In this document: positions 9,260 to 55,712 of the stretch, piece by piece | How positions within the stretch are numbered: the stretch's first letter is position 1 | Layout of the letters: every line of letters begins with the position of its first letter | NCBI RefSeq assembly: GCF_013426735.1 | Contig: NZ_AP023272.1 | Location: 2,400,501-2,464,500 of the forward strand | Source: Agrobacterium vitis | GTDB lineage: Bacteria; Pseudomonadota; Alphaproteobacteria; Rhizobiales; Rhizobiaceae | Length of the DNA stretch: 64,000 bases | Direction: 5' to 3' | Program-made: the position numbers and the translations under genes | Notes under the pieces: generated by a model | What the model saw: the letters and a program-made list of their open reading frames with translations, nothing else | What the model was told of the DNA's origin: nothing | Database searches by the model: none

Positions 9260-9871
9260 ATGTATTCCTATAATCAGGCTCCCAATAGCGGTTCAGCACG
9301 CCCCCCGGTTCAGCGGGCGTTTCAGCGCGTCTCCGTGAGTCTTGAGGGTCGGCTGATGGTGCCGAGCGAGGATGAATATGTCTGCCTGACGGTGGATATG
9401 TCGCCGGGCGACGTCCGGGTGATCTGCGCTGCCCGCCCCGTGCCGGGCGAAAGGATCATTGCCTATATCGACCATATCGGCCGCATCGAAGGCACCGTGA
9501 TCAAGACCACCGATGATGGCTTTGTCATCAGCATTGTTGCAACGGAGCGCAAACGCGAAAAGCTTGCTGCTCAATTGACCTGGATTGCCAACAAGCACGA
9601 ACTGGGCCTGCCGGAAGATCGCCGTCACGACCGACTGACACCCAAGCAACCGCGCACCGAACTGGTCTTTGATGACGGACGTAAATATAGCTGCCGGATC
9701 ATGGACCTGTCCCTTTCCGGTGCGGCGATCGATATCGATATTCGCCCACCTCTTGGCACTGCGGTGCGCCTGGGCAGCATGCGCGGCCGCGTCGTGCGCC
9801 ACTTCCTTGAAGGCGTTGCCATCGAGTTCACCACCCTGCAATCCCGCGAGGCCCTGACAGAGTTTCTGTAG
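9260..9871 (+). CDS. Tandem PilZ-domain protein (likely c-di-GMP responsive)
   Basis: 203 aa with two PilZ-like halves. The first (about residues 18-105) has degenerate motifs (QRVSVSLEGRLM, then DMSPGDVRV). The second (about 118-203) has the c-di-GMP-binding pair intact: RRHDR (RxxxR type) and DLSLSGAAI (D/NxSxxG type). No enzymatic domain is present, so it should act as a receptor whose output partner is unknown. The start is the ATG at 9260 (MYSYNQAPNSG); a TTG at 9245 is also open. The stop TAG coincides with the left end of a diverged RIME-like repeat. Confidence 0.88.
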   Translation: MYSYNQAPNSGSARPPVQRAFQRVSVSLEGRLMVPSEDEYVCLTVDMSPGDVRVICAARPVPGERIIAYIDHIGRIEGTVIKTTDDGFVISIVATERKREKLAAQLTWIANKHELGLPEDRRHDRLTPKQPRTELVFDDGRKYSCRIMDLSLSGAAIDIDIRPPLGTAVRLGSMRGRVVRHFLEGVAIEFTTLQSREALTEFL

Positions 9872-9964
9872 GACCCGTCAGGTTCATATTAAGCCGCACC
9901 GCCGCTTGATAGTGGCTGTCTTTTCGCGACATCGGGTTTCACTTCGCCCTGGCAGTTTCGAGCA
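9869..9964. repeat. Diverged copy of the ~105-bp RIME-like repeat, sharing the PilZ stop codon
   Basis: TAGGACCCGTCAGGTTCATATT at the left matches the left end of better copies (TAGAGACTGTCAGGTTCATATT). The middle (CTGTCTTTTCGCGACATCGGG) and right end (TTTCACTTCGCCCTGGCAG) also follow the family pattern with several changes. The first TAG is the stop codon of the PilZ gene. Confidence 0.6.
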
Positions 9965-10489
9965 TGCGCAGAGGATAGCGCCCTCGGCTTTCTGTTGCCT
10001 CCCAAATCTCCTGCGTCATCTCGCTCATCCAGCCAAGGCGAAAACCGCTGTATATTTTCCAGCCTTATGCCTGATCCCAATCCCGTTCACCCATCATTCA
10101 CCAAAACCCATGCATTTTTGGAGGAATTCGCGTATTTCCTGCGGTTTTTTGGCGACAAATCCCTTTTTGGGTCCACTCGACATCAACCTCCACTTAAACT
10201 CGCGGGACAATGATGCGCCCTTTCGGGACAACACGCCACACTTTTCCTGGCGTGCCTTTCTATAATTTTTTAATATTTTCAAATAGATAACAATCCTGTT
10301 TGCAATGCAGTCATAGTCATTCGCACCCGCCCGCCTTGTCAATTCCCATAGAAAACAGGAGTAAATTGCCTAAAATTTTATTTTAATTTTATACTTATTT
10401 TCCTCGATTTTGTACTTATTCCTACCTTCCAATTTTGCCAGACGGCAAAGTATCACTGTCATTGTACTCCCATAACGGGGAGACACCCA
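9965..10489. other. AT-rich non-coding stretch upstream of the BTLCP gene
   Basis: About 525 bases with no supported gene. Base composition falls sharply toward the right, with TTTTTTAATATTTTC near 10267 and runs of ATTTTATTTTAATTTTATAC near 10374. An 82-codon minus-strand frame here lacks family resemblance and a ribosome site. The stretch most likely holds regulatory DNA for the downstream gene. Confidence 0.4.
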
Positions 10490-11104
10490 ATGACGAACAA
10501 GAAGACGACAACAGGTTTCGCCATCATCGCCGCTATCGTGGCAATCGCCAGCGCACAAGCGGCTTTTGCCGGCCAGCCTTCGATGAAAATCAATGGCAGA
10601 GCCAGCCAGCCGATAGGCCATTACGAGTTCTGCCAGCGTTACGCCAGCGAATGCCGTCCCTCCGGCAGCGACAGAGGTCCGCAACAGCTGACGCCCGCGC
10701 TCTGGCAAGACATTCTTGCCGTGAACTACACCGTCAACACCACGATCAAGCCGGAAACCGATATGGATCTTTACGGTGTCGAGGAATGGTGGGAATACCC
10801 AACCGTTGCCGGCGACTGCGAAGATTACGCCCTGCTCAAGCGCCGTCAGTTGATTGCGAAAGGCGTAGACGAATCCAACCTGCTGATAACCGTGGTGCTG
10901 CAACCGAATGGCGATGGCCATGCCGTGTTGACCGTCCGCACCGATCGCGGTGATTTCATCCTCGACAACATGCGCAACCAGGTACAGCTCTGGTCGGATA
11001 CGGAATATACATTCCTGAAACGCCAGTCCTCCGACAATCCGGGGCAATGGATGAAGATCCAGGATGGGCGCGCCGCAACGGTTGCCGCCCTTCCGAAAAA
11101 CTGA
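10490..11104 (+). CDS. Bacterial transglutaminase-like cysteine peptidase (BTLCP, DUF920 family)
   Basis: 204 aa, exported by an N-terminal signal peptide (about 1-27, ending AQAAFA). The papain/transglutaminase-like triad is visible: Cys in GDCEDYALLKR, His in GHAVLTVRT and Asp in FILDNMRNQ. Proteins of this family occur in pseudomonads and rhizobia; LapG, a relative, is a periplasmic protease controlled by c-di-GMP. No LapD-like partner is seen here, although a PilZ gene lies 0.6 kb upstream. GGGGAG eight nt before the ATG supports the start. It is closed by a strong terminator. Confidence 0.88.
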   Translation: MTNKKTTTGFAIIAAIVAIASAQAAFAGQPSMKINGRASQPIGHYEFCQRYASECRPSGSDRGPQQLTPALWQDILAVNYTVNTTIKPETDMDLYGVEEWWEYPTVAGDCEDYALLKRRQLIAKGVDESNLLITVVLQPNGDGHAVLTVRTDRGDFILDNMRNQVQLWSDTEYTFLKRQSSDNPGQWMKIQDGRAATVAALPKN

Positions 11105-11191
11105 CTGCCAAGGCGAGGACGCGACCGCATCCACGACGTCTGGCAGATATTGGCCCCGGTCGTCCCCGCATCTCCGTCCGACCAAGGCCAA

Positions 11192-11229
11192 GAGCCGGCT
11201 CCGCTGCCACGGAGCCGGCTCACTTTTTT
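11192..11229 (+). terminator. Rho-independent terminator after the BTLCP gene
   Basis: Perfect 12-bp stem (GAGCCGGCTCCG at 11192-11203 with its complement at 11210-11221), a six-base loop, then AC and six T. It lies about 90 nt after the stop codon. Confidence 0.9.
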
Positions 11230-11389
11230 GGATATTGCAGGCGGGCGCAAGGGCGCCATTAACGCGCCATTAACCATGCCCTGACCATGCTTCTACGTGC
11301 GACTCGGGTCCCGTCTTCAGGTTGTTGGCCAGTGCCTCACCCATGATGACGTGGAAGGGTTGTACAGCCAAGAGAAGGCCAGTCAAAGC

Positions 11390-12145
11390 ATGGACCACGC
11401 CGTCAAGTTACCCACAACCAACATTGAGAAGCCCCTGATTTCCACCAGGGCGCTGACGGTTTGTTTTGTGGGTCTCGCCCTTCTCCTGATCTTTTCCCTG
11501 GCGCTGTTTCTCGGCAGCGACTGGATTGGCCGGGCGTTGACAAGCGATCGGCGCAGCGAGAGCACGACACCACGGGCGATCACCATTGGCCTTGATCATC
11601 TGCGCATTGAAGACAACGCCATAAGGTTCCAACGCCAGCGCCACGATGGCGCTCTAGCCCGCGTGGATCTGGCCCTGACATGGCCGGAAATGCGCGGCTA
11701 TAGTCAGGTTGACCGGCTTCGTTTCGACGACATCAGACAATCGAATGAATTGATTTTCCTCCAGATTTCCCAGAGCACCATGTCACGCGACATGTCCGGC
11801 CGGATCGAGCCGATCTACAAGCAATTGTTCGAAGGAGCGCCGCAGCCAGGCCCCTTTGGCCTGACCGGTCACCGCTTTCGGGCGGGCAGCGGCTATGACG
11901 GGGAAATTCTTTACACAGCCCCACGGCCGGGTCGCCCAGACTTCGCCATCCGTTGCCTTTCCCTCGATCAAGCCGGGCTGCAACAGGACGGCCCCGCCGT
12001 CGACACCTGCCAACGCGATCTCAACGCCGGTCACGATCTCAGTGTACTTTACCGGTTCTCACGCCAGAAATTGGCCGACTGGAGGCAAATTGATACCGCG
12101 GTCGAAGCATTCGTCGCTTCCCGGCTGACCGTGAAGAGTGAGTAG
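11390..12145 (+). CDS. Membrane-anchored protein of unknown function
   Basis: 251 aa, not recognised as a named family. One hydrophobic segment (about residues 22-44, ALTVCFVGLALLLIF and onward) would anchor the protein in the inner membrane, with the remaining 200 residues likely periplasmic. That part is rich in charged residues and has one pair of cysteines (IRCLSL, DTCQRD) that could form a disulfide. AGAGAAGG lies 11 nt before the ATG at 11390. An upstream start at 11297 is open, but the extra residues look non-coding. Single-gene unit between two terminators or gaps. Confidence 0.75.
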   Translation: MDHAVKLPTTNIEKPLISTRALTVCFVGLALLLIFSLALFLGSDWIGRALTSDRRSESTTPRAITIGLDHLRIEDNAIRFQRQRHDGALARVDLALTWPEMRGYSQVDRLRFDDIRQSNELIFLQISQSTMSRDMSGRIEPIYKQLFEGAPQPGPFGLTGHRFRAGSGYDGEILYTAPRPGRPDFAIRCLSLDQAGLQQDGPAVDTCQRDLNAGHDLSVLYRFSRQKLADWRQIDTAVEAFVASRLTVKSE

Positions 12146-12394
12146 ATCCGAACCTTGTCCAGACTTGGCGCAGATTTTTATGGGCATTGGCAAAATTTTA
12201 GAAAAATGCAGCAGGGACCGGCAACCTGTTGTTCATCATAAACCACTTGGTAACGCTGTGGTGTTAGCGTCAGGAAATATGTCGCTGCGGGGCGGCCAAA
12301 GCAGGAATTCATACGCATAGCACCAGATCGGGGATGTCGCCCCGACCCTATGCGTGATCAGGGCTGGAATTCAGGAAAGAGTGCAGTGGTGAAT

Positions 12395-13849
12395 ATGCGA
12401 GTTGCTAGCCTCCTTGGTCGAAACATGATTGTTCGGCCTGTCATGCGTGTCTCTCTCACCGTGGCTCTGGTCTGTGCCACGTTGGTGGCTCCGGCTCCCG
12501 AGGCTGCGGCTGCATCGCGCTATGCCGACATTGTCGTGGATGTGAATAACGGCAAGGTTTTGCGCGCCACCGATGCTGACAGCCTGCGTTATCCGGCATC
12601 GCTCACCAAGATGATGACCCTGTATCTGGTTTTCGAAGCGCTGGAGAAGGGCCGTATCCGGTTGAATTCCTCTGTTCCCGTGTCGGCCCATGCTGCCTCC
12701 GAGCCACCATCCAAGCTTGGCCTTAGGCCCGGCGGCAGCTTTACCGTAGAGCAAGGCATTCAGGCCCTCGTCACCCGCTCCGCCAATGACGCGGCCACTG
12801 CGTTCGGCGAATATCTCGGTGGCTCCGAGGCCCGATTTGCCCAGATGATGACATCCAAGGCGCGCGCACTTGGCATGTCCCGCACCACCTATCGCAATGC
12901 AAATGGCCTGCCGAACTCCGGCCAGATGACCACGGCCCGCGATCAGGCGCGGCTGGGCATGGCGCTCAGACAGCATTTTCCGCAATATTACGCTTACTTT
13001 TCCACCCGCAGCTTCACCTATGGTCGCCAGGTAATCGGTAATCACAATCGCCTCATCGGCTCGGTGCGCGGCGTGGACGGGATCAAGACCGGCTTTACCA
13101 ATGCCTCCGGCTTCAACCTTGTGACATCCCTGCAGATCGATGGTAAATCCGTGGTTGGCGTGGTGCTGGGCGGTGCCTCAGGTGCAGCACGCGACAACCA
13201 GATGCGGAAGCTGATGGCAACCTATCTGCCGGAAGCCTCCCGTCGTGGTGGCGCAAGTCCGCTTATTGCCCGCCAAAGCACCGTGCCGGAGCCGATGGCG
13301 CCTGTTGCCCGCGAAACCGCCGTTGCACCGCAATTGCCTCAATCCGGTGTGCCCGTACCCGGCGGACGCTACGACACAGGTAGCCTAAGCGAAACAGCTT
13401 ATGCCGGTGGAGGAGGCGCCAATGATGCGGTTGCCGCCCTTGCGAAGCAAGCGGAGGCAAGCCAGGCCCTGGAAACAGAATCGGCTCCCATGCCGCAGAC
13501 CCGCAAAAGTGCGTCGCGCCATTCCAAATCATCTGGCCCCAAACCGCCAGCCGATGTCGACAACACAGTCACGTTCTCCACCAAGGCCCCAACTGCGGCA
13601 CCTTCGGGCTGGACCGTCCAGATCGGTGTTTCGGATAGCCAGGAAGCTGCGATGGACCTGCTGAAAAGCGCCCGTGCCAAGAGCGGTATTTCCCTCAAGG
13701 GTGCGCGACCTTTCGCCATGGCCTATGGCGAAGGAGCATCTCAGGTCTATCGCGCCCGGTTTGTCGGCTTCGATGATCAGAAGTCTGCGGTCAATGCCTG
13801 CAATCGCTTGAAAAAGGCTGGCGTCAGCTGCTGGGCCGCAATGCAGTAA
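12395..13849 (+). CDS. D-alanyl-D-alanine carboxypeptidase with C-terminal SPOR domain
   Basis: Low-molecular-mass penicillin-binding protein that trims the terminal D-Ala of peptidoglycan stem peptides in the periplasm. About 484 aa. Signal peptide is roughly residues 1-40 (ending APEAAAAS). All three active-site motifs are intact: SxxK in PASLTKMM, SxN in SANDAATA and KTG in GIKTGFTNASG. A 100-residue low-complexity linker leads to a SPOR domain (GWTVQIGVSDSQEAAMDLL to the end), which binds denuded septal glycan and suggests a division-site role. The start is uncertain: ATG 12395, or GTG 12386 with GGAAAG upstream. Compare the degenerate paralogue at 48780. Confidence 0.93.
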   Translation: MRVASLLGRNMIVRPVMRVSLTVALVCATLVAPAPEAAAASRYADIVVDVNNGKVLRATDADSLRYPASLTKMMTLYLVFEALEKGRIRLNSSVPVSAHAASEPPSKLGLRPGGSFTVEQGIQALVTRSANDAATAFGEYLGGSEARFAQMMTSKARALGMSRTTYRNANGLPNSGQMTTARDQARLGMALRQHFPQYYAYFSTRSFTYGRQVIGNHNRLIGSVRGVDGIKTGFTNASGFNLVTSLQIDGKSVVGVVLGGASGAARDNQMRKLMATYLPEASRRGGASPLIARQSTVPEPMAPVARETAVAPQLPQSGVPVPGGRYDTGSLSETAYAGGGGANDAVAALAKQAEASQALETESAPMPQTRKSASRHSKSSGPKPPADVDNTVTFSTKAPTAAPSGWTVQIGVSDSQEAAMDLLKSARAKSGISLKGARPFAMAYGEGASQVYRARFVGFDDQKSAVNACNRLKKAGVSCWAAMQ

Positions 13850-13936
13850 TCACTCTGTCTTACCGAGGCCTGCGCAGGTGTTTGCGCAAGGTTCGGTCAG
13901 ATCACCTCGAAATGTAATGCGTACGAGGATGTCATC

Positions 13937-14236
13937 ATGGCAAGCAATGAAAACCACCTGAACACCGGCCAGGTCGTGGACCAGGCAACGGATCACGCGG
14001 TTGGCAGTGATCCGGCATTTCGCTTCAACCCGCGCGCTGGCCTCAATCCGCTGCATGAGGCGGCGATCCGGCTGGCCGATGGCATCAACAAGCCGCGTGC
14101 CAAGACGCGGGACCTGATGAACCTCCTCCTCTGCCACGGCGCGCGTGCGTGGCGCTATTCTCAGCCGGAAGCGAGTATTCACCTGCATCTGGACCCGCAT
14201 TCCCGTCGGGTACCGGTAAAGCTAAGGTTGCGGTAA
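13937..14236 (+). CDS. Small hypothetical protein, possibly a gene remnant
   Basis: 99 codons from an ATG preceded by GAGGATG. The first 65 codons have the GC-rich third positions typical of the window. The tail (CHGARAWRYSQPEASIHLHL onward) looks less protein-like. I recognise no domain. An overlapping frame in another phase is also open here (14149-14343), so this may be a frameshifted remnant. A 116-codon antisense frame is probably a shadow. Confidence 0.35.
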   Translation: MASNENHLNTGQVVDQATDHAVGSDPAFRFNPRAGLNPLHEAAIRLADGINKPRAKTRDLMNLLLCHGARAWRYSQPEASIHLHLDPHSRRVPVKLRLR

Positions 14237-14309
14237 AAACCATAGGCCCCGAACGAGCAAGTTTGAGCAGACCGCATGTCCGCTGTCTCGGCGAACATGA
14301 CCAAGAATT

Positions 14310-14340
14310 AATCCAATCTCACTCGCTGGTGAATTGGATT
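14310..14340. repeat. Inverted repeat in the leader of the small secreted-protein gene
   Basis: AATCCAAT (14310-14317) pairs exactly with ATTGGATT (14333-14340) across a 15-nt loop, about 80 nt before the ATG of the next gene. It could be an operator or an mRNA leader hairpin. Confidence 0.4.
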
Positions 14341-14419
14341 TGAACGGATTAAGCGCGAGGATCTCCTTCACCGGCTAACGAGTTTTTCTCGCCGGTTTTG
14401 TTCCTGGAGGAGTGAACCC

Positions 14420-14773
14420 ATGTCTCGTATTGCCATGTCTCGCATTTCCAAAATTTCTCTTGCCGCCATTCTCGCAACCGCCGCCATGACTGGAATCAGC
14501 CATGCAGCCATGTCTGCCGCTGACAGGGCGCTGGCAACAGATCACAATCCCCGCTTCATGATCAGCACGCCGGATGAAATCGAAAAGCACGACACATTTC
14601 AGGATTTTCTCGGATCTCTGACGCCAACCAGCCCTGAGGCTCGCGAAGTCCAGGCCGCCATTCGCGAAAACCCGGTTCTGCGCAGGCAATTATTGTCGCA
14701 GAATGTTGAGCTCAAAAATGTGATTTACGCTGACGAAGCATCCGATGGCAGCTTCGTGCTCTATGTCCGCTGA
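14420..14773 (+). CDS. Small secreted protein of unknown function
   Basis: 117 aa with an N-terminal signal peptide (about residues 1-30; hydrophobic stretch ISLAAILATAAMTG, cleavage near SHAA). The mature part (about 85 residues) is hydrophilic, has no cysteine and matches no family I know. A strong GGAGGAG lies eight nt before the ATG, so translation is expected. A GC-rich palindrome lies shortly after the stop (about 14791-14814) but has no T tract. Confidence 0.75.
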   Translation: MSRIAMSRISKISLAAILATAAMTGISHAAMSAADRALATDHNPRFMISTPDEIEKHDTFQDFLGSLTPTSPEAREVQAAIRENPVLRRQLLSQNVELKNVIYADEASDGSFVLYVR

Positions 14774-14930
14774 CATACCCGCCATGACAGGGGCCGGGCA
14801 TATGCGCCCGGCCCAAAATATCATTACCATTAACCAGCAGATAAGCACGCCCTCCACGGGTTCAAAGCCCTTGCTTTTCTAAGGCCGATCCCGAAAGATC
14901 AGTGGCAGATCGATAAAAGGACCTGCAACC

Positions 14931-15476
14931 ATGCCACTTTACGCCCTCGGGGATCTGAAACCGCACCTGCCTTCCGCCGACCGTTACTGGGTCGCGCCCA
15001 ATGCGCAGGTCATCGGCAATGTGATCATCGGCGAGGATGTTGGCATATGGTTCGGTGCGGTGCTGCGGGGCGATAATGAGCCAATCACCATTGGCGCAGG
15101 CTCCAATGTGCAGGAAAACGTCACCATTCACACCGATATGGGCTTTCCGACAACCATCGGCCAAGGCTGCACAATCGGCCATAATGCCATCATTCACGGC
15201 TGCACTCTGGGCAATAACACGCTGGTGGGCATGGGGGCGACCGTGCTGAACGGTGCCAGGATCGGCAATAACTGCCTTATCGGTGCCAATGCGCTGATTA
15301 CCGAGGGCAAGGAATTTCCCGACAACTCCCTGATTGTCGGCTCACCAGCCCGCGCCATACGCACTCTCGATGACAAGGCGGTGGAAGGCCTGAAGCGCTC
15401 CGCGCAAAACTACATCGCCAACTGGCAACGGTTTGCTAGAGACTGTCAGGTTCATATTGAACCAGACAGTCTCTAG
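14931..15476 (+). CDS. Gamma-carbonic anhydrase family protein (YrdA/CaiE-like)
   Basis: 181-aa left-handed beta-helix protein built from hexapeptide repeats. The family's metal-binding histidines are present (VTIHTD, GHNAIIHG), with GSPARAIR near the end of the helix. Members are cytosolic trimers; many lack proven anhydrase activity, so the reaction is uncertain. The final residues (DCQVHIEPDSL) are encoded by a RIME-like repeat and differ from what the fold needs, so the native C-terminus has been replaced. The start at 14931 (MPLYALGDLKPHLP) is typical. Confidence 0.93.
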   Translation: MPLYALGDLKPHLPSADRYWVAPNAQVIGNVIIGEDVGIWFGAVLRGDNEPITIGAGSNVQENVTIHTDMGFPTTIGQGCTIGHNAIIHGCTLGNNTLVGMGATVLNGARIGNNCLIGANALITEGKEFPDNSLIVGSPARAIRTLDDKAVEGLKRSAQNYIANWQRFARDCQVHIEPDSL

Positions 15477-15540
15477 ATTCCTTTGTTTTCGTTTGTCATA
15501 TCGGGAAAACCGGTTTCCACTTTTCCCTGACAAACTCTAG
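15436..15540. repeat. RIME-like intergenic repeat, copy A
   Basis: About 105 bp. The left half is an imperfect palindrome (CTAGAGACTGTCAGGTTC then GAACCAGACAGTCTCTAG), followed by TTTGTTTTCGTTTGTC, CGGGAAAACCGG, TTTCCACTTTTCCCTGACAAACTCTAG. It overlaps the 3' end of the gamma-carbonic anhydrase gene, whose stop TAG is at 15474-15476. Closely similar copies are at 20128, 48629 and 55608. Confidence 0.92.
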
Positions 15541-15569
15541 TGAACTGAAACCGCTCTGAAGGCGTGATT

Positions 15570-15968
15570 TCAGACGAGGCACTCTGCACAGACGCCGCGA
15601 ATTTCGATTGTGGTTTTCTCGGCCTTGAAACCCTGGCCCTTCGACCAGTCTCCCAGCCGATGGTCGATGGAGTGATCGTGAAACTCCTTGACCTGCCCGC
15701 ATTTGCTACAGATTGCGAAGGCCACGGTTCCATGGTCACAGCAATCATGCTGGAGGTGGGAGCAGACGACAAAGGCGTTAAGGCTTTCCAGCCGATGCAC
15801 AAGGCCGAATTCCAGCAGCTTTTCCAGGGCGCGATATACCTGTAGCGGCGCGCGGAAACCACTATCGCGCAGCTTGTCGAGGATCGTATAGGCCGAAAGC
15901 GGGCCATCTGCCTTTTCGAGCGCCTGAAAGACCAGGCTTTGATTGCGGGTCAATTGCGGTGTGGACAT
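15570..15968 (-). CDS. zur: Zinc uptake regulator (Fur family)
   Basis: 132-aa Fur-superfamily repressor: winged helix about residues 1-75 (TRNQSLVFQALEKADGPLSAYTI), then a dimerisation domain with zinc ligands in SHLQHDCCDHG and the structural-zinc cysteines CSKC and CAEC. Its place directly after znuB (8-nt gap) and the presence of two Zur-type operators identify it as Zur rather than Fur or Irr. With zinc bound it should repress znuA, znuCB-zur and the GTPase gene, so it is probably autoregulated. Confidence 0.93.
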   Translation of the reverse strand: MSTPQLTRNQSLVFQALEKADGPLSAYTILDKLRDSGFRAPLQVYRALEKLLEFGLVHRLESLNAFVVCSHLQHDCCDHGTVAFAICSKCGQVKEFHDHSIDHRLGDWSKGQGFKAEKTTIEIRGVCAECLV

Positions 15969-15975
15969 CGAACGA

Positions 15976-17707: not shown

Positions 17708-17773
17708 GGATACCGAAACTCCACAGATTGAGTGTTGCAACCGGCTATGACACACGTTATAGCGTTACGCAAT

Positions 17774-20127: not shown

Positions 20128-20231
20128 CTAGAGTCTGTCAGGTTCAGATTGAACCAGACAGACTCTAGCTTCTCTTATTTTCGTTTGTCTTTTCGGGAAA
20201 ACCGGATTCCACTTTTCCCTGACAAACTCTA
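20128..20231. repeat. RIME-like intergenic repeat, copy B
   Basis: About 104 bp: left palindrome CTAGAGTCTGTCAGGTTC / GAACCAGACAGACTCTAG, then TTTTCGTTTGTCTTTTCGGG, AAAACCGGATTCCAC, TTTTCCCTGACAAACTCTAA. It lies between the convergent ends of the GTPase and ROK genes. Its right end supplies the ROK stop codon (TAG on the minus strand at 20229-20231). Confidence 0.92.
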
Positions 20232-21377
20232 AATGAAGTAGCGCATCTTGAGCGGCAGAAGCGCTGCACCAATGACTGCTGCATCTCCCTTCACTTCGCT
20301 GAGCACCAGTCGGGCCTCCTTTGGCCCGACGCCGTAACGATGAACCCGCTGCGAGGGCATCGGGCATCTTTCGATCATCATCGCGCCCAGTGCTGGCGGC
20401 AATTGGCCGCCGAAAACGATGGCCTGCGGATCGATCACGGCGATCAATACCGCCACCAGCCGCTCGACCTGTGGCATGGTTGCTTCCAGCCAAGCCTCCA
20501 CGCCTGGCCAACCTGGATCGAATGTCCGGTAAAGGGTATCGACGGAATCAATCTCGATGCCGTGGTCTTGAAGGCTCCGAAGCAAATATTGCAGGGCTGG
20601 ACGCCGAGGTGCCTCGGTCGGGTCGTAAATCCCTGATAATTCAGCGGCATTGCCATGGAATCCGTAAAACGGCTGACCATTGAGGATCAGTCCGCCACCG
20701 AAACCATAGTTGAACGACAGATAGGCAAAGGTCTGGCACCATCGCCCCACACCTTGCAAGCTTTCGCCGATAGCACCTGTGGTCCCATTGTTCTCCTGCC
20801 AGACGGGAAGCTGAAACGTCTGTTCAAGGATCGGGCGAAGATCCGTCAGCGACCAGTCCTGCAAGGGTTCCGGCGCATTGAATATCCGGTCATCGGCAAC
20901 AGAAAAGCCCGACATGGCAAATCCCAGCCCCAGCAGCCGCTCGCGCGGCAGATTATGGGCCTCAAGCATCTCATCCAGGGTCCGTGACAAGGCAGCAAGG
21001 GTGGCCTCACGGCTGAGCGGCAAGAGATTGAGTTTCTTCTGGCTAATCACGCCGCAGCTGAAATCCGCGAGGCAGATAATCGCCGAATCGGTGTTGATCG
21101 ATATGCCCAGCGACGCCACGGACTCCACCGCAAGCTCGATGGTCGGGCTCGGCTGGCCGCGTGCGCCCTTCAGCGGCGCGCCGGTGCGCAGCAAACCGCG
21201 CTCGATCAGCCCCTCAATCAACCGATGCACCGATTGCTGCGTCAGGTTGGTGTGGGTGGTGATCACTGAGCGGGCAATGGGTCCGTGGCGGCGGACGATG
21301 TCCAGAATCAGACGTTCGTTCTCGCTGGCAAGCGGGTTTCTGTCAAAGCGAGAGGGCTGTTTGGCTTGGGTCGTCAT
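20229..21377 (-). CDS. ROK-family transcriptional regulator
   Basis: 382 aa: an N-terminal winged helix-turn-helix (about residues 18-75, ENERLILDIVRRHGPIARSVIT and LTQQSVHRLIEGL) followed by a ROK sugar-kinase-like sensor domain. The ATP/sugar-binding features are partly kept (NNGTTGAIGE, GFGGGLILNG, FHGNAAELSG), but the usual ROK cysteine-rich zinc motif is not visible. It is divergent from a four-gene ABC importer with a GDPD gene and probably regulates it. The start ATG 21377 (MTTQAKQPSRFD) is preferred to 21419. The stop lies in the adjoining repeat. Confidence 0.9.
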   Translation of the reverse strand: MTTQAKQPSRFDRNPLASENERLILDIVRRHGPIARSVITTHTNLTQQSVHRLIEGLIERGLLRTGAPLKGARGQPSPTIELAVESVASLGISINTDSAIICLADFSCGVISQKKLNLLPLSREATLAALSRTLDEMLEAHNLPRERLLGLGFAMSGFSVADDRIFNAPEPLQDWSLTDLRPILEQTFQLPVWQENNGTTGAIGESLQGVGRWCQTFAYLSFNYGFGGGLILNGQPFYGFHGNAAELSGIYDPTEAPRRPALQYLLRSLQDHGIEIDSVDTLYRTFDPGWPGVEAWLEATMPQVERLVAVLIAVIDPQAIVFGGQLPPALGAMMIERCPMPSQRVHRYGVGPKEARLVLSEVKGDAAVIGAALLPLKMRYFI

Positions 21378-31000: not shown

Positions 31001-31129
31001 GCAATTCTCCTTCTCGCGCTTACGCGAGGCCAGTCCTACCAATTCCGGAGGATTTCTCAATTCCAGGAATGGTCAATTTGGATATCGTGACGTTACGAAA
31101 ATATCCGTGATCACGAACCGGATTTTTTC

Positions 31130-31196
31130 ATGGCTCTAAGTCCTTTGATTTACGCATTTCCGGACGCAAAACCGCTTCACACTTTTCCTGAAAATG
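31130..31196. repeat. RIME-like repeat (second family) at the end of glmU
   Basis: GGCTCTAAGTCCTTTGATTTACGCATTTCCGGACGCAAAACCGCTTCACACTTTTCCTGAAAATGC in pieces: TTTACGCATTTCCGGACG, AAAACCGCTTCACACTTTTC, CTGAAAATGCTTT. It shares TTTACGCAT, the CCGGA and AAAACCG blocks with the copy at 40476, and CACTTTTCC(C)TGA with the first family. It overlaps the 3' end of glmU, encoding its last residues (AFSGKV) and stop. Confidence 0.6.
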
Positions 31197-32535
31197 CTTT
31201 GATCGCCATATTCCGCTCCCGGATCGCTTTTGCCCGCCCCGGTTTGATTTCCTGGCGCGCCCGGCCAAGTGCCAACGCATCGGCAGGCACATCATCCGTA
31301 ATCACGCTGCCAGAGGCGATCAGCGCGCCATCGCCAATCGTCACCGGGGCGACCAGGGCGCTGTTGGAGCCGATAAAGGCATTCGCGCCAATCCGGGTCT
31401 CATGCTTGTTCACCCCATCGTAATTGCAGGTAATCGTACCTGCGCCAATGTTGGTTTCCGCGCCAATAAAGGCATCACCGATATAGGTGAGATGGTTGAT
31501 CTTGGCGCCAGCGCCAATCTCGGCCTTTTTCACCTCGCAGAAATTGCCGACCTTGGAGCCCTCGCCCAGATTGGCACCGGGCCGCAGCCGCGCAAACGGG
31601 CCGACTGTCGCACCGGATGCCACATGCGCACCTTCCAGATGCGAAAAGGCATGGATCACCGCACCGCTTTCCACAGTCACGCCGGGACCGAACACCACAT
31701 TCGGCTCGATCAGCACATCCTGCGCCAGAACAGTATCATAGGCCAGAAACACCGTTTCCGGGGCAATCATCGAGACGCCTGACAGCATCAATTCATGACG
31801 CCGACGCTCCTGCCAGAGCTTTTCGATCACCGCCAGTTCGGCGCGATTGTTGCAGCCCGCAAGCTCAGATTCCGGCGCATCGACAGCCACCGCCTTGCCG
31901 CCCAGCGAGCGGACGATTTCGACCAGATCGGTCAGGTAATATTCACCCTTGGCATTGGCATTGCCGATCCGCCCCAGAAGGTCCAACGCCTTGGCACCAT
32001 TGATCGCCATCAAGCCACTATTGCACCACGTCACCTTGCGCTCTTCGTCGCTGGCATCCTTTTCTTCGCGGATGGCGACCAATTCACCGTCCTCGACCAG
32101 AAGACGGCCATAGCCGGTCGGCTTTTCAGTGTGAAAACCAATCACCGCAATGTCATTGCCGTCAGCCAGAGCCGCACGCGCTGCCAACAGCGGACCTGAT
32201 GTAATCAGCGGTGCATCGCCATAGGCCACCAGAATATCGTCATAGCCTCGGGCAAACGCCTCACCCGCTGTCAAAACGGCATGGCCGGTGCCAAGCCGCT
32301 CGGTTTGCACGAAGGGGGTGACGGACAGGCCTTTGATGCTGGCGGCTTTTGTCACCTTATCCGCATCACGCCCGACGACCAGCGCTACATCGGCAATATC
32401 GCTGGCGGCAATCGCCTGCATCACATGGGCAATCATCGGCAGGCCCGCCACCGGATGCAGCACCTTGGACATCGCGGATTTCATTCGCGTGCTATCGCCT
32501 GCGGCGAGAATGACGGCAAGACAGGTGCGGCTCAT
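31177..32535 (-). CDS. glmU: Bifunctional UDP-N-acetylglucosamine pyrophosphorylase / glucosamine-1-phosphate N-acetyltransferase
   Basis: Catalyses the last two steps to UDP-GlcNAc. 452 aa from [20 protein letters not shown] (the uridyltransferase loop), an N-terminal nucleotidyltransferase domain to about residue 230, then a left-handed beta-helix acetyltransferase domain ([21 protein letters not shown]). The last six codons and stop fall in a RIME-like repeat, so the extreme C-terminus is probably not ancestral. The 452-aa length is close to normal. The ATG at 32535 is supported by the conserved N-terminus; ATGs up to 32628 are open but would run across the BMP-operon terminator. Confidence 0.96.
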
Positions 32536-46855: not shown

Positions 46856-46868
46856 AACCCGGTCAAGC

Positions 46869-47891: not shown

Positions 47892-47892
47892 T

Positions 47893-48558: not shown

Positions 48559-48577
48559 TGATCCGCTTTCTTTCCTG

Positions 48578-48628: not shown

Positions 48629-48733
48629 CTAGAGTCTGTCAGATTCAGATTGAACCAGACAGACTCTAGCTACTCTTGTTTTCGTTTGTCTTTTCGGGAA
48701 AACCGGATTCCACTTTTCCCTGACAAACTCTAG
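48629..48733. repeat. RIME-like intergenic repeat, copy C
   Basis: About 105 bp, nearly identical to copy B: CTAGAGTCTGTCAGATTC / GAACCAGACAGACTCTAG, TTGTTTTCGTTTGTC, TTTTCGGGAAAACCGG, ATTCCACTTTTCCCTGAC, AAACTCTAG. It lies 47 nt after the end of the dac gene. Confidence 0.93.
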
Positions 48734-48779
48734 AACCGCTGTGTAACGTAAGCTTGCGCCCTCGGAAACCTCTGTCGGT

Positions 48780-50015: not shown

Positions 50016-50158
50016 CGCCATCCTTCACCAATAATAAGATGCCAGAGGGCGAGAATCGCCACCGGCATCTATAATGGATAGGTTTTATGGAGGAAGGCGT
50101 CTACCCTTGAAAACGGCGAGAGGAAGGCTCAAGCAAGCCTCACCAGCGCCAGTTGGGA

Positions 50159-51319
50159 TCAGCCTTCATTGGGATTGGAATAGGCATTGGCTGTCACAGG
50201 AGCCGGGCCGACATGCCAGCCGGGCGGCAGGCCGCCACCAGACGGTGCCGCCACCGGCTTCTGACGGGTCGCAGTGGCACGAACCGGCTGCGGTGCGGCC
50301 ACAGGCGCCATCTCCCGGCGAGCAACGCCGGTGCTGGCAGCATTGCGCGGCTGCGGCATCGGCTCAGCGGAGGCAATGGCCGGAGCCTGCCATTCGCGGG
50401 TCGGTTCAATGCGGGTCGGTTCTGGCCGCGATACGGCGACCGGCTGACGCTGGACCGGGCGCGGTGCATTGGCACTGGCGGAAACCGGATAGGAGTTGCT
50501 GCCGTAAGCCGAGGCTGACGCCGGCGCAATAACCGGTTTGGCCGTTTTCGGCTGCGGTGCAGACGCGCTGGCCGGGCCTGCGAAACGGCCGAAGAAATTC
50601 TGCTGCGGCGCATTCGACGCCACCATCACGCCACTGGCGATCTGGCCTCCACCGAAGGGATCGACGCCGGGAACGCGCTGGCCCTTGCGGACGTAAGACG
50701 CCATCAGATAGGGCATGTCATGTCCCGTCATGTCGGCTGGGCCAACATATTTGACCTTAACATGGGCCGTGCCATGGCCCTTAACGTCAAGAAGTTCGGC
50801 TGCCTTGTCGGAAAGGTCGATCAGGCGATTGGCGTGGAACGGGCCACGATCGTTGACGCGGACAATGACCGAACTGCCGGTATCGAGATTGGTGACACGA
50901 GCATAGCTGGGCAATGGCATTGTCGGATGGGCGGCGGAAATGCCGTATTGGTCATAGACTTCGCCATTGGCGGTGTAGCGACCATGGAAAGCCGAGCCAT
51001 ACCAGGAGGCAAGCCCGGAGGCTTCGTAATTTGGGTTTTCGCGCGGCTTATAGACCTTGCCTGCCACCACGTAGGGGTTCCCAACCAGACGGCGACCGCC
51101 GCCCTTCGGCACAGGACCATTTTCCACCACTCGCGGGCTAGCCTTCACGCCATAGGCGGATTCGGCAAAATATTCCTTGCTGCGTTTCTTGGTCGTGCTG
51201 ACCTTGCTCACATCATGGTTTGCGCCACAGGACGTCACCGCCACGCCCGCCAGAACAACCCATGCCATCCGCAAACATCCGGAAACTGAACGCCGCTGCA
51301 AAACCATTTTTACCGTCAT
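50159..51319 (-). CDS. rlpA: RlpA-like septal-ring lytic transglycosylase family lipoprotein
   Basis: 386 aa. Lipoprotein-like signal (AWVVLAGVAVTSCGANH, lipobox VTSC). A double-psi beta-barrel domain about residues 95-190: GLASWYGSAFHGRYTANGEVYDQ, then VRVNDRGPFHANRLIDLS, the RlpA catalytic signature with its Asp. The C-terminal 180 residues are Ala/Pro/Gln-rich and disordered, and the usual SPOR domain is absent. It probably cleaves naked glycan strands at the septum or modifies the wall. ATG 51319 chosen; ATG 51307 possible; the frame is open to 51529 but looks non-coding. Confidence 0.9.
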   Translation of the reverse strand: MTVKMVLQRRSVSGCLRMAWVVLAGVAVTSCGANHDVSKVSTTKKRSKEYFAESAYGVKASPRVVENGPVPKGGGRRLVGNPYVVAGKVYKPRENPNYEASGLASWYGSAFHGRYTANGEVYDQYGISAAHPTMPLPSYARVTNLDTGSSVIVRVNDRGPFHANRLIDLSDKAAELLDVKGHGTAHVKVKYVGPADMTGHDMPYLMASYVRKGQRVPGVDPFGGGQIASGVMVASNAPQQNFFGRFAGPASASAPQPKTAKPVIAPASASAYGSNSYPVSASANAPRPVQRQPVAVSRPEPTRIEPTREWQAPAIASAEPMPQPRNAASTGVARREMAPVAAPQPVRATATRQKPVAAPSGGGLPPGWHVGPAPVTANAYSNPNEG

Positions 51320-51525
51320 CGCACCGACACACCAATCAGGACCGCGACGCGGCCATTGCAAAGAATAAATGTCAAATTTTAGTCCCCCGAAGTGACACAG
51401 GACTGTGCCACAATAGAAATGGGGATAAAATGGCGAAAATGCGATTATGGTTAAGACGTTAGGGGGAATAGTTCGAGTTATGGTTAATGAAGGGTTAAGC
51501 GGAGACGGACATCCCCTCCAAACGG

Positions 51526-52233
51526 TCATACCGACCGGGTCAATCCACCATCCACTTTAAGATTTTGACCAGTGATATACCCTGCGCCCTCGGACGCCAG
51601 AAAAGCGACGGTCGCGGCGATCTCCGCGCTTGTGCCATATCGCTTCATTGGAACGGCATCCCGACGCTGTTCGGTTGCGGGCAGGCTGTCGATCCAGCCC
51701 GGCAGAACATTGTTCATGCGAATATTGTCCGCGGCATAGGTATCGGCGAAAATCTTCGTATAGGCGGCAAGACCGGCGCGAAACACTGCCGAGGTCGGAA
51801 ACATCGACGAAGGCTCAAACGCCCAGGCGGTGGAAATATTGATGATAGCGCCCGATTTTTGCGCCTGCATGATGGGTGTGACGAGACGGACAGGACGGAT
51901 GACGTTCAACAGGTAGACGTCCATGCCCATATGCCATTGCTCATCGGTGATCTCGATGATCTGGGCGCGCGGGCCATGACCGGCACTGTTGACCAGTACA
52001 TCGATCCGCCCCCAGGCTTCCATGGTGATATCGGTCAGACGCGCCAGGTCGTCATTGGATTGATTGGACCCGGTTACGCCAATACCGCCAAGCTCAGTCG
52101 CCAGCGCCTCGCCCTTGCCGGAAGATGACAGGATGGCGACCTTGTAGCCATCACCGGCAAGACGTCTGGCGCATTCGGCTCCCATGCCGCTTCCGCCAGC
52201 CGTAACGACAGCAACTTTCTCTGCGGACATCAT
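51526..52233 (-). CDS. SDR-family protein lacking the canonical Tyr/Lys pair
   Basis: 235 aa Rossmann-fold short-chain dehydrogenase/reductase relative. The cofactor loop TAGGSGMG and NSAG are present, with VDGGLT at the C-terminus. The catalytic region aligns as INISTAW (Ser kept) and TSAVFRAGLAAYTK; against YxxxK the Tyr is Ser148 and the Lys is Arg152. Classic SDR chemistry is therefore unlikely unless another residue substitutes. Function unknown. GGGAGAGAT precedes the ATG. No co-transcribed neighbour. Confidence 0.88.
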   Translation of the reverse strand: MMSAEKVAVVTAGGSGMGAECARRLAGDGYKVAILSSSGKGEALATELGGIGVTGSNQSNDDLARLTDITMEAWGRIDVLVNSAGHGPRAQIIEITDEQWHMGMDVYLLNVIRPVRLVTPIMQAQKSGAIINISTAWAFEPSSMFPTSAVFRAGLAAYTKIFADTYAADNIRMNNVLPGWIDSLPATEQRRDAVPMKRYGTSAEIAATVAFLASEGAGYITGQNLKVDGGLTRSV

Positions 52234-52347
52234 ATCTCTCCCAAGGGCTAACCGGAAAATTATGCAGTAGCGCAGCCCGCCATAATGCGTTCGTGCGGCA
52301 GAAACACTGACGCACGAAACTCGGTCTCGACGATACAGCGCCGAAAA

Positions 52348-53160
52348 TCAGCCAACGAACGCCCGCTCGATGACGAATTCAGCTGGCTTGTTGTTCGCAC
52401 CTTCAGTCAGCCCGGCCTTTTCCAGCAGCGCTTTGGTGTCCTTCAGCATCGCTGTCGAGCCGCAGATCATTCCACGGTCAATGGCCGCGTCCAGCGCCGG
52501 GACGCCAAGGTCGGTAAACAGCTTGCCGTTTTCGATAAGGTCGGTGATCCGGCCCATGAAGGGGTAATCTTGGCGGGTGGCGGTGGCGTAATGCTTCAGC
52601 TTGTCGCCGACGATTTCGCTCAGCATCTCATCGGCCTTGATTTCAGAAATCAGGTCGAATCCGTATTTCAACTCAGCGACATCGCGGCAGGTATGCGTGA
52701 GGATGACTTCCTCGAATTTCTCATAGGTTTCCGGGTCGCGGATCAGGCTGGCGAAGGGCGCAATGCCGGTGCCGGTCGAGAACATATAAAGCCGCTTGCC
52801 GGGCGTCAGCGCGTCCAGCACCAGGGTGCCGGTCGGCTTCTTGCGCATCAGCACCCGATCGCCCGGCTTAATCCGCTGCAAATGCTGGGTCAGCGGTCCG
52901 TTCGGCACCTTGATCGAGAAGAATTCCAGTTCCTCGTCCCAGGACGGGCTGGCGATGGAATAGGCGCGGTAGAGCGGCTTGCCATCCACCATCAGGCCGA
53001 TCATCGCGAACTCGCCCGAACGGAAACGAAAACCGGCAGGCCGGGTCATCCGGAAGCGGAACAGGTGGTCGGTATAATGCGTCACGCTCAGCACCGTTTC
53101 GGCATAGACGCCTTCCGGGACGATCAGTTCGGCATTATCGGTCTTTGCAGGAGCATTCAT
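52348..53160 (-). CDS. fpr: Ferredoxin--NADP+ reductase
   Basis: Transfers electrons between NADPH and ferredoxin or flavodoxin. 270 aa: FAD domain with RAYSIASPS (RxYS), the linker GDRVLMRKKPTGTLVL, and NADP domain with FSTGTGIAPFASLIRDPETYEKF, THTCRDVAEL and CGSTAMLKDT. The C-terminus VIERAFVG is typical of bacterial Fpr. It lies 240 nt beyond the sulfite-reductase operon on the same strand and may supply its electrons. Confidence 0.94.
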   Translation of the reverse strand: MNAPAKTDNAELIVPEGVYAETVLSVTHYTDHLFRFRMTRPAGFRFRSGEFAMIGLMVDGKPLYRAYSIASPSWDEELEFFSIKVPNGPLTQHLQRIKPGDRVLMRKKPTGTLVLDALTPGKRLYMFSTGTGIAPFASLIRDPETYEKFEEVILTHTCRDVAELKYGFDLISEIKADEMLSEIVGDKLKHYATATRQDYPFMGRITDLIENGKLFTDLGVPALDAAIDRGMICGSTAMLKDTKALLEKAGLTEGANNKPAEFVIERAFVG

Positions 53161-53400
53161 CAGCGTTCGAGTCCTTCAAATCGCATGTTGAACCGCCGCG
53201 CATCAGGGCGTATTCGGCCATGCATTATCCGCCTTGGCGGGCCTGTTACTGTAAAATCCCAAGCATGGCCAGAGGCCACACGCGGATGCGATCATAAACC
53301 GCAGCAGAGCACGCCTTCCGGATAACAGAAAGCGTGCAACCGACAGTGAGGCGAGACGCGCAGCAAGGCCATTACATCGTTCCTTATGAGTAGACCGGCG

Positions 53401-53907
53401 TCAAGAAGCCGACCGGCGGCGCCAGCTATAACCGCCAACCTCAGCAGCTGGCCGGGCAGTTGGCTGATAATGATTGGCAATCCCCGGCAGACGCCCCTCT
53501 TCCAGCCGTTTCAGCGCCACCGTATTGGTAACAGCAAAGCTGTTAAAGCCGGTGCGCAGCATCAGCGGCACCTGATCGATCAGCACGTCGCCCACCGCCC
53601 GCAATTCGCCCTGATAACCAAGCCGGTCGCGCAACAGCGAAGCATGGCTAAAGCCACGCCCGTCGTTATAGGCCGGGAATTTCACGGCAATGATGGCGAT
53701 ACGGTCGAGATAGGGTTTCAGCTTCGTCACGTCATCGGCTGGCGCGATTACCACGCCGAGATCGACGGCATTGCTGTCTTCAGCCGCAGCGATAAAGGCG
53801 TCCAGCGGCAGAAGCGCTTTCTGGCCCTCAGCCACCTTCAGCTCTTCGGTTTCCTCCAGCCAGATGTCCTGCGCGGTAAAACCGGTTTCGGTCCAGATAC
53901 GGGTCAT
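53401..53907 (-). CDS. DUF934 family protein, sulfite-reductase associated
   Basis: 168 aa, soluble. Conserved DUF934 segments: FPAYNDGRGFSHASLLRDRLGY and GELRAVGDVLIDQVPLMLRTGF (pieces RAVGDVLIDQV and MLRTGFNSF). The family almost always sits directly after the sulfite-reductase hemoprotein gene (here 11 nt gap). Its biochemical role is not established; an accessory role in sulfite reduction is inferred. Confidence 0.88.
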   Translation of the reverse strand: MTRIWTETGFTAQDIWLEETEELKVAEGQKALLPLDAFIAAAEDSNAVDLGVVIAPADDVTKLKPYLDRIAIIAVKFPAYNDGRGFSHASLLRDRLGYQGELRAVGDVLIDQVPLMLRTGFNSFAVTNTVALKRLEEGRLPGIANHYQPTARPAAEVGGYSWRRRSAS

Positions 53908-53918
53908 GATCGCGCTCC

Positions 53919-55592
53919 TCAGGCGGCTTCGGCGGATGCGCCGCCATACAGGGCTTCCTTGAAGGGCTTTGGCCCGACACGGCGATAAGCCTCAAGGAAG
54001 GTCTCCTTCGGATCAAGGCGTAGTGCCAGATAGGTATCGACCACCGTCTCCACCGCATCCGTCACCTTTTCCGGCTCGAAACCGCGACCGATGATTTCGC
54101 CGATGGACGAGTTTTCATCACCCGATCCGCCCAGCGTGATCTGGTAAAGCTCCGCACCCTTCTTTTCCACACCCAGCAGACCGATATGCCCAACATGGTG
54201 ATGGCCGCAGGCATTGATACAGCCAGAAATCTTGATTTTCAGCTCACCGATTTCCGCCTGGCGCGCCTGGGAGCCGAAGCGCGAGGAAATTGCCTGCGCC
54301 ACCGGAATGGCGCGGGCATTGGCCAGCGCGCAATAGTCCAGCCCGGGACAGGCAATAATGTCGGTGATCAGGCCCGCATTGGCGGTGCCAAGATTAGCAC
54401 CGGACAGTGCCTGATAGAGCGCTGGCAGATCGGCCATCGCCACATGCGGCAGGATCAGGTTCTGTTCATGGCTGACGCGGATTTCGTCAAAGCCGTAGCG
54501 TTCGGCCAGATCCGCCACCAGATCCATCTGGGCATCGCTGGCATCGCCGGGAATGCCGCCGATCGGCTTCAGCGAAATCGTCACCATGCCGTAATCGGGA
54601 TGCTTATGCGGCTGCACATTCTGCCCAAGCCAGGTAGCAAAGCCGTCATCGGCCTTTTTGGCTTTGGCCAGAACTTCCCAGCCTTCCGGGCGCTCAACCA
54701 GTTCAGGCAGGGCGAAATAGCTCTCGATGGCGCGAATATCGGCATCGGGCAGCTTCAGAACACTGTCCTTCAGGTTTGCGAATTCCGCATCGATCTGGCG
54801 GGTCAGTTCTTCCGTGCCGGTTTCATGCACGAGGATCTTGATCCGCGCCTTGTATTTGTTGTCGCGGCGACCATGCAGATTATAAACCCGCACAATGGCG
54901 GTGATATAGGACAGCATGTCTTCTTCGGGCAGGAAATCTTTGATCTTCTTGGCAATCATCGGCGTTCTGCCCTGACCGCCGCCGACATAGACGGCAAAGC
55001 CAAGATTTCCGCTCGCGTCCTTCTTCACATGCAAGCCGATATCATGCACCTGGATGGCGGCGCGGTCGCGCTCAGCCCCGGTCACGGCAATCTTGAACTT
55101 GCGCGGCAGGAAGGAAAACTCCGGGTGGACCGAAGACCATTGCCGCAGGATTTCAGCGTAGGGGCGTGGATCGGCAACCTCATCCTGCGCTGCACCGGCA
55201 AAATGGTCGGCGGTGACATTGCGGATACAGTTGCCGGAGGTCTGGATCGCGTGCATCTCGACGCTGGCCAGCTCTTGCAGAATATCCGGCGTATCCGACA
55301 GCTTCGGCCAGTTATACTGGATGTTCTGGCGTGTTGTGAAATGACCATAGCCGCGGTCATATTTGCGCGCCACATGGGCCAGCATCCGCATCTGCTTGGC
55401 GTTCAACGTGCCATAGGGAATGGCGACGCGCAGCATATAGGCATGCAGTTGCAGGTAAACGCCGTTCATCAACCGAAGCGGCTTGAACGCATCTTCCGCC
55501 AACTCGCCGGACAAGCGGCGACTTACCTGATCGCGAAACTGGTCCACGCGGGCCGCAACAAAGGCATGGTCAAATTCATCGTAACGATACAT
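53919..55592 (-). CDS. cysI: Sulfite (nitrite/sulfite) reductase hemoprotein
   Basis: 557-aa siroheme/4Fe4S enzyme reducing sulfite to sulfide. The two ferredoxin-like half-domains are visible, and the cluster/siroheme ligands are CPGLDYCALANAR and KISGCINACGHHH (Cys-x5-Cys and Cys-x3-Cys). Positive residues for the anion are present in the first half (YGHFTTRQNIQ). With siroheme synthase upstream and DUF934 downstream, sulfite rather than nitrite is the likely substrate. GAGGAAAG precedes ATG 55592. A RIME-like repeat separates it from DUF2849. Confidence 0.95.
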   Translation of the reverse strand: MYRYDEFDHAFVAARVDQFRDQVSRRLSGELAEDAFKPLRLMNGVYLQLHAYMLRVAIPYGTLNAKQMRMLAHVARKYDRGYGHFTTRQNIQYNWPKLSDTPDILQELASVEMHAIQTSGNCIRNVTADHFAGAAQDEVADPRPYAEILRQWSSVHPEFSFLPRKFKIAVTGAERDRAAIQVHDIGLHVKKDASGNLGFAVYVGGGQGRTPMIAKKIKDFLPEEDMLSYITAIVRVYNLHGRRDNKYKARIKILVHETGTEELTRQIDAEFANLKDSVLKLPDADIRAIESYFALPELVERPEGWEVLAKAKKADDGFATWLGQNVQPHKHPDYGMVTISLKPIGGIPGDASDAQMDLVADLAERYGFDEIRVSHEQNLILPHVAMADLPALYQALSGANLGTANAGLITDIIACPGLDYCALANARAIPVAQAISSRFGSQARQAEIGELKIKISGCINACGHHHVGHIGLLGVEKKGAELYQITLGGSGDENSSIGEIIGRGFEPEKVTDAVETVVDTYLALRLDPKETFLEAYRRVGPKPFKEALYGGASAEAA

Positions 55593-55607
55593 GTCTTTCC
55601 TCAGGCT

Positions 55608-55712
55608 CTAGAGTCGGTCAGGTTCAGATTGAACCAAACAGACTCTAGATCTTTTTTGTTTTCGTTTATCTTTCGGGAAAACCGGGTCCCACTTTTCCCT
55701 GATAAACTTTAG
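55608..55712. repeat. RIME-like intergenic repeat, copy D, inside the sulfite-reductase operon
   Basis: About 105 bp: CTAGAGTCGGTCAGGTTC / GAACCAAACAGACTCTAG, TTGTTTTCGTTTATC, GGGAAAACCGGGTCCCAC, TTTTCCCTGATAAACTTTAG. It fills nearly the whole gap between DUF2849 and cysI and supplies the DUF2849 stop codon (TAA, minus strand 55709-55711). Confidence 0.92.

Follow-up and report, generated by a model that had tools for sequence, protein, structure and literature searches.

Rhizobium-specific intergenic mosaic elements (RIME) are repeats of rhizobial hosts with a characteristic size class and a two-palindrome make-up. We analyzed a 64,000-nucleotide stretch of Agrobacterium vitis DNA (assembly GCF_013426735.1, contig NZ_AP023272.1, positions 2,400,501 to 2,464,500; here "the window") containing copies of a repeat that we call the first-family repeat. 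It is like RIME, as these are generally described, in host group, size class and the possession of two palindromes.

Repeats in other bacteria share further properties with it. RUP of Streptococcus pneumoniae is a miniature inverted-repeat transposable element (MITE) of 107 bp that inserts at TA and for which IS630-Spn1 is the proposed mover (PMC2229807, PMC3049150). The first-family repeat is similar in size, in having terminal repeats like those of its host's IS630 element and in its TA target, but it differs in sequence and host, and the accessible parts of those papers do not mention a coincidence of RUP with stop codons. Pneumococcal BOX overlaps 58 coding sequences (CDSs), in 36 of which it forms the extreme 3′ end and encodes the stop, and orthologue alignments gave no strong evidence of truncation (PMC3049150). 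BOX thus resembles the first-family repeat in supplying gene stops with little sign of truncation; unlike it, BOX is linked to ISSpn2 rather than IS630, and the accessible text offers no target-motif explanation. ERIC/RU-1 of enterobacteria extends the C terminus of the amidase ECA3499 (PMC2759123), and QMITE2 of Coxiella that of EnhC (PMC5896051). These MITEs also lengthen resident proteins, but they have other sequences, and the extensions are described gene by gene in the portions of the papers available to us. Our literature search, whose limited coverage makes it weak evidence of absence, found no title naming the first-family repeat in Agrobacterium or Allorhizobium vitis. The kind of element is already known; as far as the literature searched goes, the family, its IS630 partner and the division of its stop codon excess into target and survival are new. 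We propose that the first-family repeat is a MITE of about 102 bp that is very probably moved by the IS630 transposase of its own genome, with survivorship and a stop-like target together producing its excess at stop codons.

Insertion sites and gene stop codons

A sequence search scored 40 places in each of four genomes, the genome of the window (G000) and those designated G032, G028 and G011. Since first-look candidates numbered 101 to 161 per genome (145 in G000), these are the best-matching copies, and G000 holds at least 40 distinct places. We fetched 147 of the 160 scored places (40, 37, 40 and 30 from G000, G032, G028 and G011, respectively). Thirteen were dropped as shared insertions on the basis of ungapped flank identity, leaving 134 distinct sites. 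A later gapped check found two cross-genome pairs with a long common flank (L002/L136 and L154/L227; L numbers designate loci), which we went on counting separately, and brief stretches in common near other sites as well.

TA was intact at both ends of 62 sites. Only TA was required for entry into this set, and yet 54 of the 62 read Y-TA-R, with a pyrimidine before and a purine after (CTAA, 19; CTAG, 18; TTAG, 9; TTAA, 8), and 8 had other neighbours. Empty sites in relatives carry a single TA, so the target is duplicated on insertion; at L012, for example, G032 has CAC TAA TGC where the filled site reads CAC TAGAG...CTCTA ATGC. ISY100 inserts almost exclusively at TA, with duplication, according to the part of its description available to us. 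IS630 itself reportedly prefers CTAG, to judge from the title of a 1991 paper by Tenzen and Ohtsubo.

Genes were called with a home-made codon-usage caller trained on the window. The terminal TA(G/A) of the element was the stop codon of a called gene at 40 of the 134 sites (35 TAG and 5 TAA; 26 at the right end and 14 at the left), distributed as 9/40 in G000, 16/38 in G028, 7/27 in G032 and 8/29 in G011. Other offsets from −60 to +105 held at most 4 gene stops each. The 40 genes all differ, the sole paralogous pair being 35% identical. As a null sample we used 464 kb of G000 (20 stretches plus the window) with elements masked, in which 45 of 695 noncoding YTAR sites (6.5%) were stop codons; a stricter gene threshold gave 38/728, and weighting by target use gave 6.0%. 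The preliminary description of this DNA had asked whether element ends meet stop codons more often than chance, and across the four genomes they do (40/134 versus 45/695).

Public annotation agrees. The first-family repeat matched 26 plasmid records, and in 18 of them the best match overlapped an annotated feature; in all 7 of these 18 that were examined, the NCBI annotation has a CDS stopping exactly at a terminal TAG. The CDS is a short hypothetical protein in a record labelled Roseateles. In NZ_CP015738.1 and NC_011981.1, two convergent annotated genes stop at the two ends of the element. For NC_011981.1, the element-free ribokinase gene of G011 ends at the same codon; no empty site was found for the other convergent gene among 36 genomes, 5 of which matched (G000 included), all on the ribokinase side.

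The window contains four clear copies (82 to 100% identical to the reference copy) and two diverged stretches, which are listed here with the genes that end at them.

15436 to 15539, plus strand: first-family copy in the C-terminal codons of a gamma-carbonic anhydrase gene; the site is empty in R. paknamense and G032
20128 to 20231, plus strand: reference copy of the first family, located within the native ROK stop codon and between two convergent genes
20229 to 21377, minus strand: ROK-family regulator gene, stop TAG at 20229 to 20231 rebuilt in place
48629 to 48732, plus strand: intergenic first-family copy that coincides with no stop, lying 50 bp beyond where the next minus-strand gene stops
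55608 to 55711, plus strand: first-family copy within the native DUF2849 stop codon
55709 to 56023, minus strand: DUF2849 gene, stop TAA at 55709 to 55711, the same codon as in relatives
9260 to 9871, plus strand: PilZ-domain gene, native stop TAG at 9869 to 9871
9867 to 9968, plus strand: strongly diverged first-family-like stretch where the PilZ gene stops; its boundaries were drawn by eye and are approximate
9051 to 9154, plus strand: diverged first-family copy (63% to the reference), some 10 bp beyond where the gene at 7115 to 9040 stops

Orthologues were compared for 23 of the 40 terminal-stop sites (all 9 in G000 and 14 elsewhere), some stop positions being read by eye from the DNA (right-sided G000 sites; L176; GlmU in G012 and G011; PilZ in G013). 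At 20 of the 21 resolvable sites, element-free orthologues stop at the same codon. These comprise eight G000 sites (L001 [ROK], L004, L011, L012, L022 [DUF2849], L026, L111 and L114) and twelve in other genomes (L157, L167, L170, L176, L180, L225, L227, L132, L140, L215, L236 and L244); no element-free orthologue was found for L023 (in G000) or L185. At the remaining site, L136, a galE-like gene of G032, the one orthologue read (G011) runs 12 residues further, and the gene looks as if it was truncated by a donated stop. C-terminal residues are quoted here up to the stop. The ROK and DUF2849 proteins of G032 end RYFI and FVAV without an element. PilZ orthologues end TEFL, with TGA in G010 and G013 and with TAG in G032. 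The stretch at the window's own PilZ stop had one other match only, 78% over 51 nucleotides, when compared with the window, 40 copies and 20 stretches; in G028 a clearer element, with a well-preserved right half, lies at the same PilZ stop.

The preliminary description located five gene ends inside repeats, and all five lie where it placed them. Its statement that the repeats donate stop codons fails in general: the orthologue comparison that it had named as able to refute donation returned the same C-terminal residues and stop without the repeat for PilZ, ROK and DUF2849, so donated stops were rejected for these genes. Both ends do carry the CTAGAG sequence that it reported, but its leading C (or T) and its TA come from the target and not from the element. 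It was right that insertion near a gene 3′ end is nearly harmless, both ends carrying TAG.

In these comparisons, element ends mostly restore stops rather than donate them. On either strand YTAR includes TAR (TAA or TAG), which makes any native TAA or TAG stop with a pyrimidine before it a target. In the mechanism that we propose, the MITE inserts at the TA of Y-TA-R and duplicates it. The element begins with GAG at both ends (5′-TA/GAG...CTC/TA-3′), and each junction reads TAG inward. Because the terminal TAG is made of the target TA and the first G of the element, insertion into a native stop rebuilds TAG at the same codon and leaves the protein unchanged.

At G012:C17:550320-550885 (L333), about 220 bp of other DNA follows the stop codon that is occupied by the MITE at L026 in G000.

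The IS630 partner and the structure of the repeat

G000 carries two copies (2 differences) of a 1,054-bp IS630-family element bounded by TAGAGTCTGTCAGC and TAGAGTCTGTCAGGTTTAGTTTGAACCA. The corresponding first-family ends are TAGAGTCTGTCAGGTTCAGATTGAACCA (2 differences in 28) and TAGAGTTTGTCAGG, so the repeat has terminal inverted repeats in common with an autonomous-type IS630-family element of the same genome. The 1,054-bp element has two overlapping open frames which, read apart, give a helix-turn-helix part and a DDE part. The former matches the IS630 model at 1.2e-14, below the model cut-off; the latter matches the IS630 transposase model NF033545 at 6.3e-44, above its cut-off, and DDE_3 at 1.1e-31. 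A 99.4% identical copy on a plasmid of A. vitis F2/5 is annotated "IS630 family transposase." A DDE_3 search of 12 genomes had matches in 7 (28 loci); at ≤3 mismatches, a MITE-like terminal repeat lies at both ends in L188 and L193 only and at one end in L189, L190 and L213. The IS630 copy of L188 (G000:C1:3437204-3440611, IS at 975 to 2028) starts at the TAG stop of a called 292-codon gene and is directly followed by an apparent right half of a first-family MITE.

The first-family repeat is about 102 to 104 bp long, noncoding and present in many copies. It consists of a palindrome, TAGAGTCTGTCAGGTTCAGATTGAACCAGACAGACTCTA, joined through a short spacer rich in AT to another, imperfect palindrome that ends in CTGACAAACTCTA; read inwards, its ends are TAGAGTCTGTCAGG and TAGAGTTTGTCAGG. 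Judged from its sequence, it is an IS630-type MITE, and the transposase of the 1,054-bp element would mobilize it in trans. Its IS630 partner and the duplication of TA were the grounds for setting aside an assignment to the repetitive extragenic palindromes or bacterial interspersed mosaic elements (REP/BIME).

A consensus built from 119 of the 134 sites folds into two strong hairpins (−43.7 kcal/mol). Changes on both sides of the hairpins numbered 78, versus a mean of 22 and a maximum of 36 in 300 column shuffles. The copy at 9051 to 9154 has changed palindrome arms that still pair (GGTAGCCTGTC...GCAGGCTACC), which fits the both-side changes of the family. At the gathering threshold, the sole Rfam match in the window was tRNA. 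Matches to the repeat were present in 16 of 60 genomes searched, G000 included. Two records of Roseateles sp. XES5 (NZ_CP084753.1 and NZ_CP084754.1; UNVERIFIED_ORG, with a betaproteobacterial label) have 19 and 17 first-family places; the other matching records bear alphaproteobacterial genus names, and the Roseateles label may be wrong.

At L029, a copy lacking the left palindrome lies at a native TAA and starts at the inner TA of the element, and the right palindrome alone may move or be kept. This site, with a stop at +37, was rejected as a rewritten tail, since element-free G032 shows identical codons and an identical stop there.

Bias towards gene 3′ ends and its possible causes

Gaps of ≤600 bp between called genes held 94 of the 134 sites; of the others, 14 lacked a called gene to one side, 19 lay in larger gaps and 7 had a gene reading in. 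Within these gaps, 38/94 sites were at a stop, versus 34/289 in the null (odds ratio, 5.1; P = 1e-8), and 73/94 were within 60 bp of a gene 3′ end, versus 83/289. Divergent gaps were underused (7/94 versus 85/289), and convergent gaps held 30/94 sites versus 18/289. Among sites no more than 60 bp from a 3′ end, the proportion at stops (38/73) did not significantly exceed that of the null (34/83; convergent P = 1.0, tandem P = 0.43), nor did it when the gap limit was removed (40/80 versus 45/114; P = 0.19). The stop excess fits a 3′-end bias plus a stop-like target; an extra preference for stops is unnecessary, although a small one is possible. These tests do not support the idea that stop codons are specially attractive relative to the other YTAR sites close to 3′ ends. 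Under our proposal, insertions in genes or promoters would mostly be lost by selection, and those at gene 3′ ends would survive.

The hairpins could instead act as 3′ stabilizers or terminators of mRNA, so that copies at gene ends are positively retained. The two strong hairpins and their both-side changes favour such a role, but the copies are related, so that shuffles overstate covariation, and the transposition cycle can also keep palindromes. This explanation is possible but unlikely. Active preference of the transposase for stop codons or gene 3′ ends, through terminator hairpins or transcription state, for example, would account for the strong 3′-end and convergent-gap bias. We consider it improbable: near 3′ ends, stops are not significantly favoured over other YTAR sites, and purifying selection alone predicts the underuse of divergent gaps and genes. 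It is distinctly doubtful that this IS630 subgroup has evolved, in its YTAR target and GAG-starting ends, a "stop-safe" grammar of insertion, with stops serving as self-repairing landing sites on either strand; under that reading, even a TA shared by overlapping convergent stops could be split, each gene keeping its own stop, an arrangement for which the two-sided annotation of NZ_CP015738.1 and NC_011981.1 is an example. That the ends truly donate stops, insertion upstream of the native stop placing an in-frame TAG that truncates or re-ends the protein, gains from the galE-like gene and the rewritten tails of gamma-carbonic anhydrase, PhnL and GlmU, but it is highly improbable and, on the sequence comparisons, refuted as the general case (standing for single genes), since all but one of the resolved terminal-stop sites have the stop position of element-free relatives and truncating insertions would be expected to leave roughly two times as many genes reading on, in the two remaining frames, where we saw 10 versus 40.

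Several points weigh against survivorship of an IS630-moved MITE at a stop-like target. The terminal-repeat match between MITE and IS630 element is short, and the differences in presence between genomes reflect past movement only. The set of sites with two intact ends is skewed in favour of stop sites, because selection keeps a stop that is in use. The gene caller (348 genes with stops in 464 kb) misses some genes, which affects both the observed and the null counts, and the sites are best-matching copies only (40 of 101 to 161 candidates per genome, 147/160 fetched). The orthologue check covered 23 of the 40 stop sites, and 2 of the 23 had no empty orthologue. Finally, the L026 orthologue in G011 is one residue longer and that of L236 in G025 three longer; other relatives match.

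A stop-like target joined to a stop-restoring end offers a simple quantitative reason for mobile repeats inside gene ends. Because 40 of 134 sites lie in stop codons, annotation and C-terminal comparisons in this group will often meet such elements. For the host, a grapevine-associated member of the Rhizobiaceae, insertion would usually be harmless and only occasionally give a new protein tail.

Rewritten C-terminal tails and the second repeat family

When the TA used is out of frame with the final codons of a gene, translation runs into the element and ends at an inner stop, with the tail rewritten. The possibility of such rewriting had been raised in the preliminary description and is realized in three genes, gamma-carbonic anhydrase, PhnL and GlmU, whose tails differ from those of element-free orthologues; of the genes that it proposed to align, gamma-carbonic anhydrase and GlmU have new tails, while PilZ, ROK and DUF2849 are unchanged. 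The features concerned in the window are as follows.

14931 to 15476, plus strand: gamma-carbonic anhydrase-like gene with element-encoded tail DCQVHIEPDSL (best match NCBIfam NF050158, 151 bits, below the cut-off of 250)
15541 to 15559, plus strand: relic of the old gamma-carbonic anhydrase 3′ end (GAACTGAAACCGCTCTGA), still readable, now downstream of the element
31177 to 32484, minus strand: glmU, with repeat-encoded tail FSGKV replacing MKKSGS
31133 to 31198, minus strand: second-family unit inside the glmU 3′ end (G000:C1:2431633-2431698)
31111 to 31131, minus strand: remnant of the former glmU 3′ end, which encodes MKKSGS followed by TGA and now lies downstream of the second-family unit

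The gamma-carbonic anhydrase frame crosses the left palindrome of the copy at 15436 and ends at the inner TAG at 15474 to 15476. Its R. paknamense orthologue (95% identical) ends RFARELKPL and that of G032 FARELKPL, whereas the filled gene ends RFARDCQVHIEPDSL. Among 80 relatives compared, two A. vitis loci (L031 and L032) share the insert and tail; over the 170 residues aligned, the A. vitis CG78 protein is 100% identical. PhnL (L018; TIGR02324, 3.6e-97) ends SQFSPRSIAA in element-free G011, and G013, G033 and G008 have similar ends of the same length, versus SQFSPRGRQVQIEPAIL in the filled gene, an end also present in G032 and G012. The gamma-carbonic anhydrase and PhnL tails are read from one shared frame of the left palindrome (Q-V-x-I-E-P). 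Over the 134 sites, 10 genes read into a first-family element, versus the 40 that end at its end. Besides gamma-carbonic anhydrase and PhnL, genes reading in include those at L020 and L116, both with a stop at +21, and at L119, L148, L234 and L258.

GlmU ends AFSGKV-TGA inside a unit of a second repeat family. G012 and G011 end in IKAMKKSGS (MAIKAMKKSGS in G012), versus KAFSGKV in G000 and G032. These rewritten tails are natural experiments on the freedom of C termini to change.

Better-kept second-family copies begin TAGAGC. In G000, this family had 31 matches, 30 of which were fetched as copies; a gene stop lies at the left end of 4 of the 30, all of them among the 9 copies whose TAR there is intact. 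With its TAGAGC ends, the second family behaves like the first at gene stops, and a second-family copy in G025 (L410) occupies the same stop codon as a first-family copy in G032 (L132). Seven G000 copies matching the second-family query (L431, L433 to L437 and L439) share a longer, well-conserved stretch and form a distinct repeat type, with ACGTGAG upstream, then ACAAGCATT..CCAG.AAAAGT.CGAAGC, and a further block downstream.

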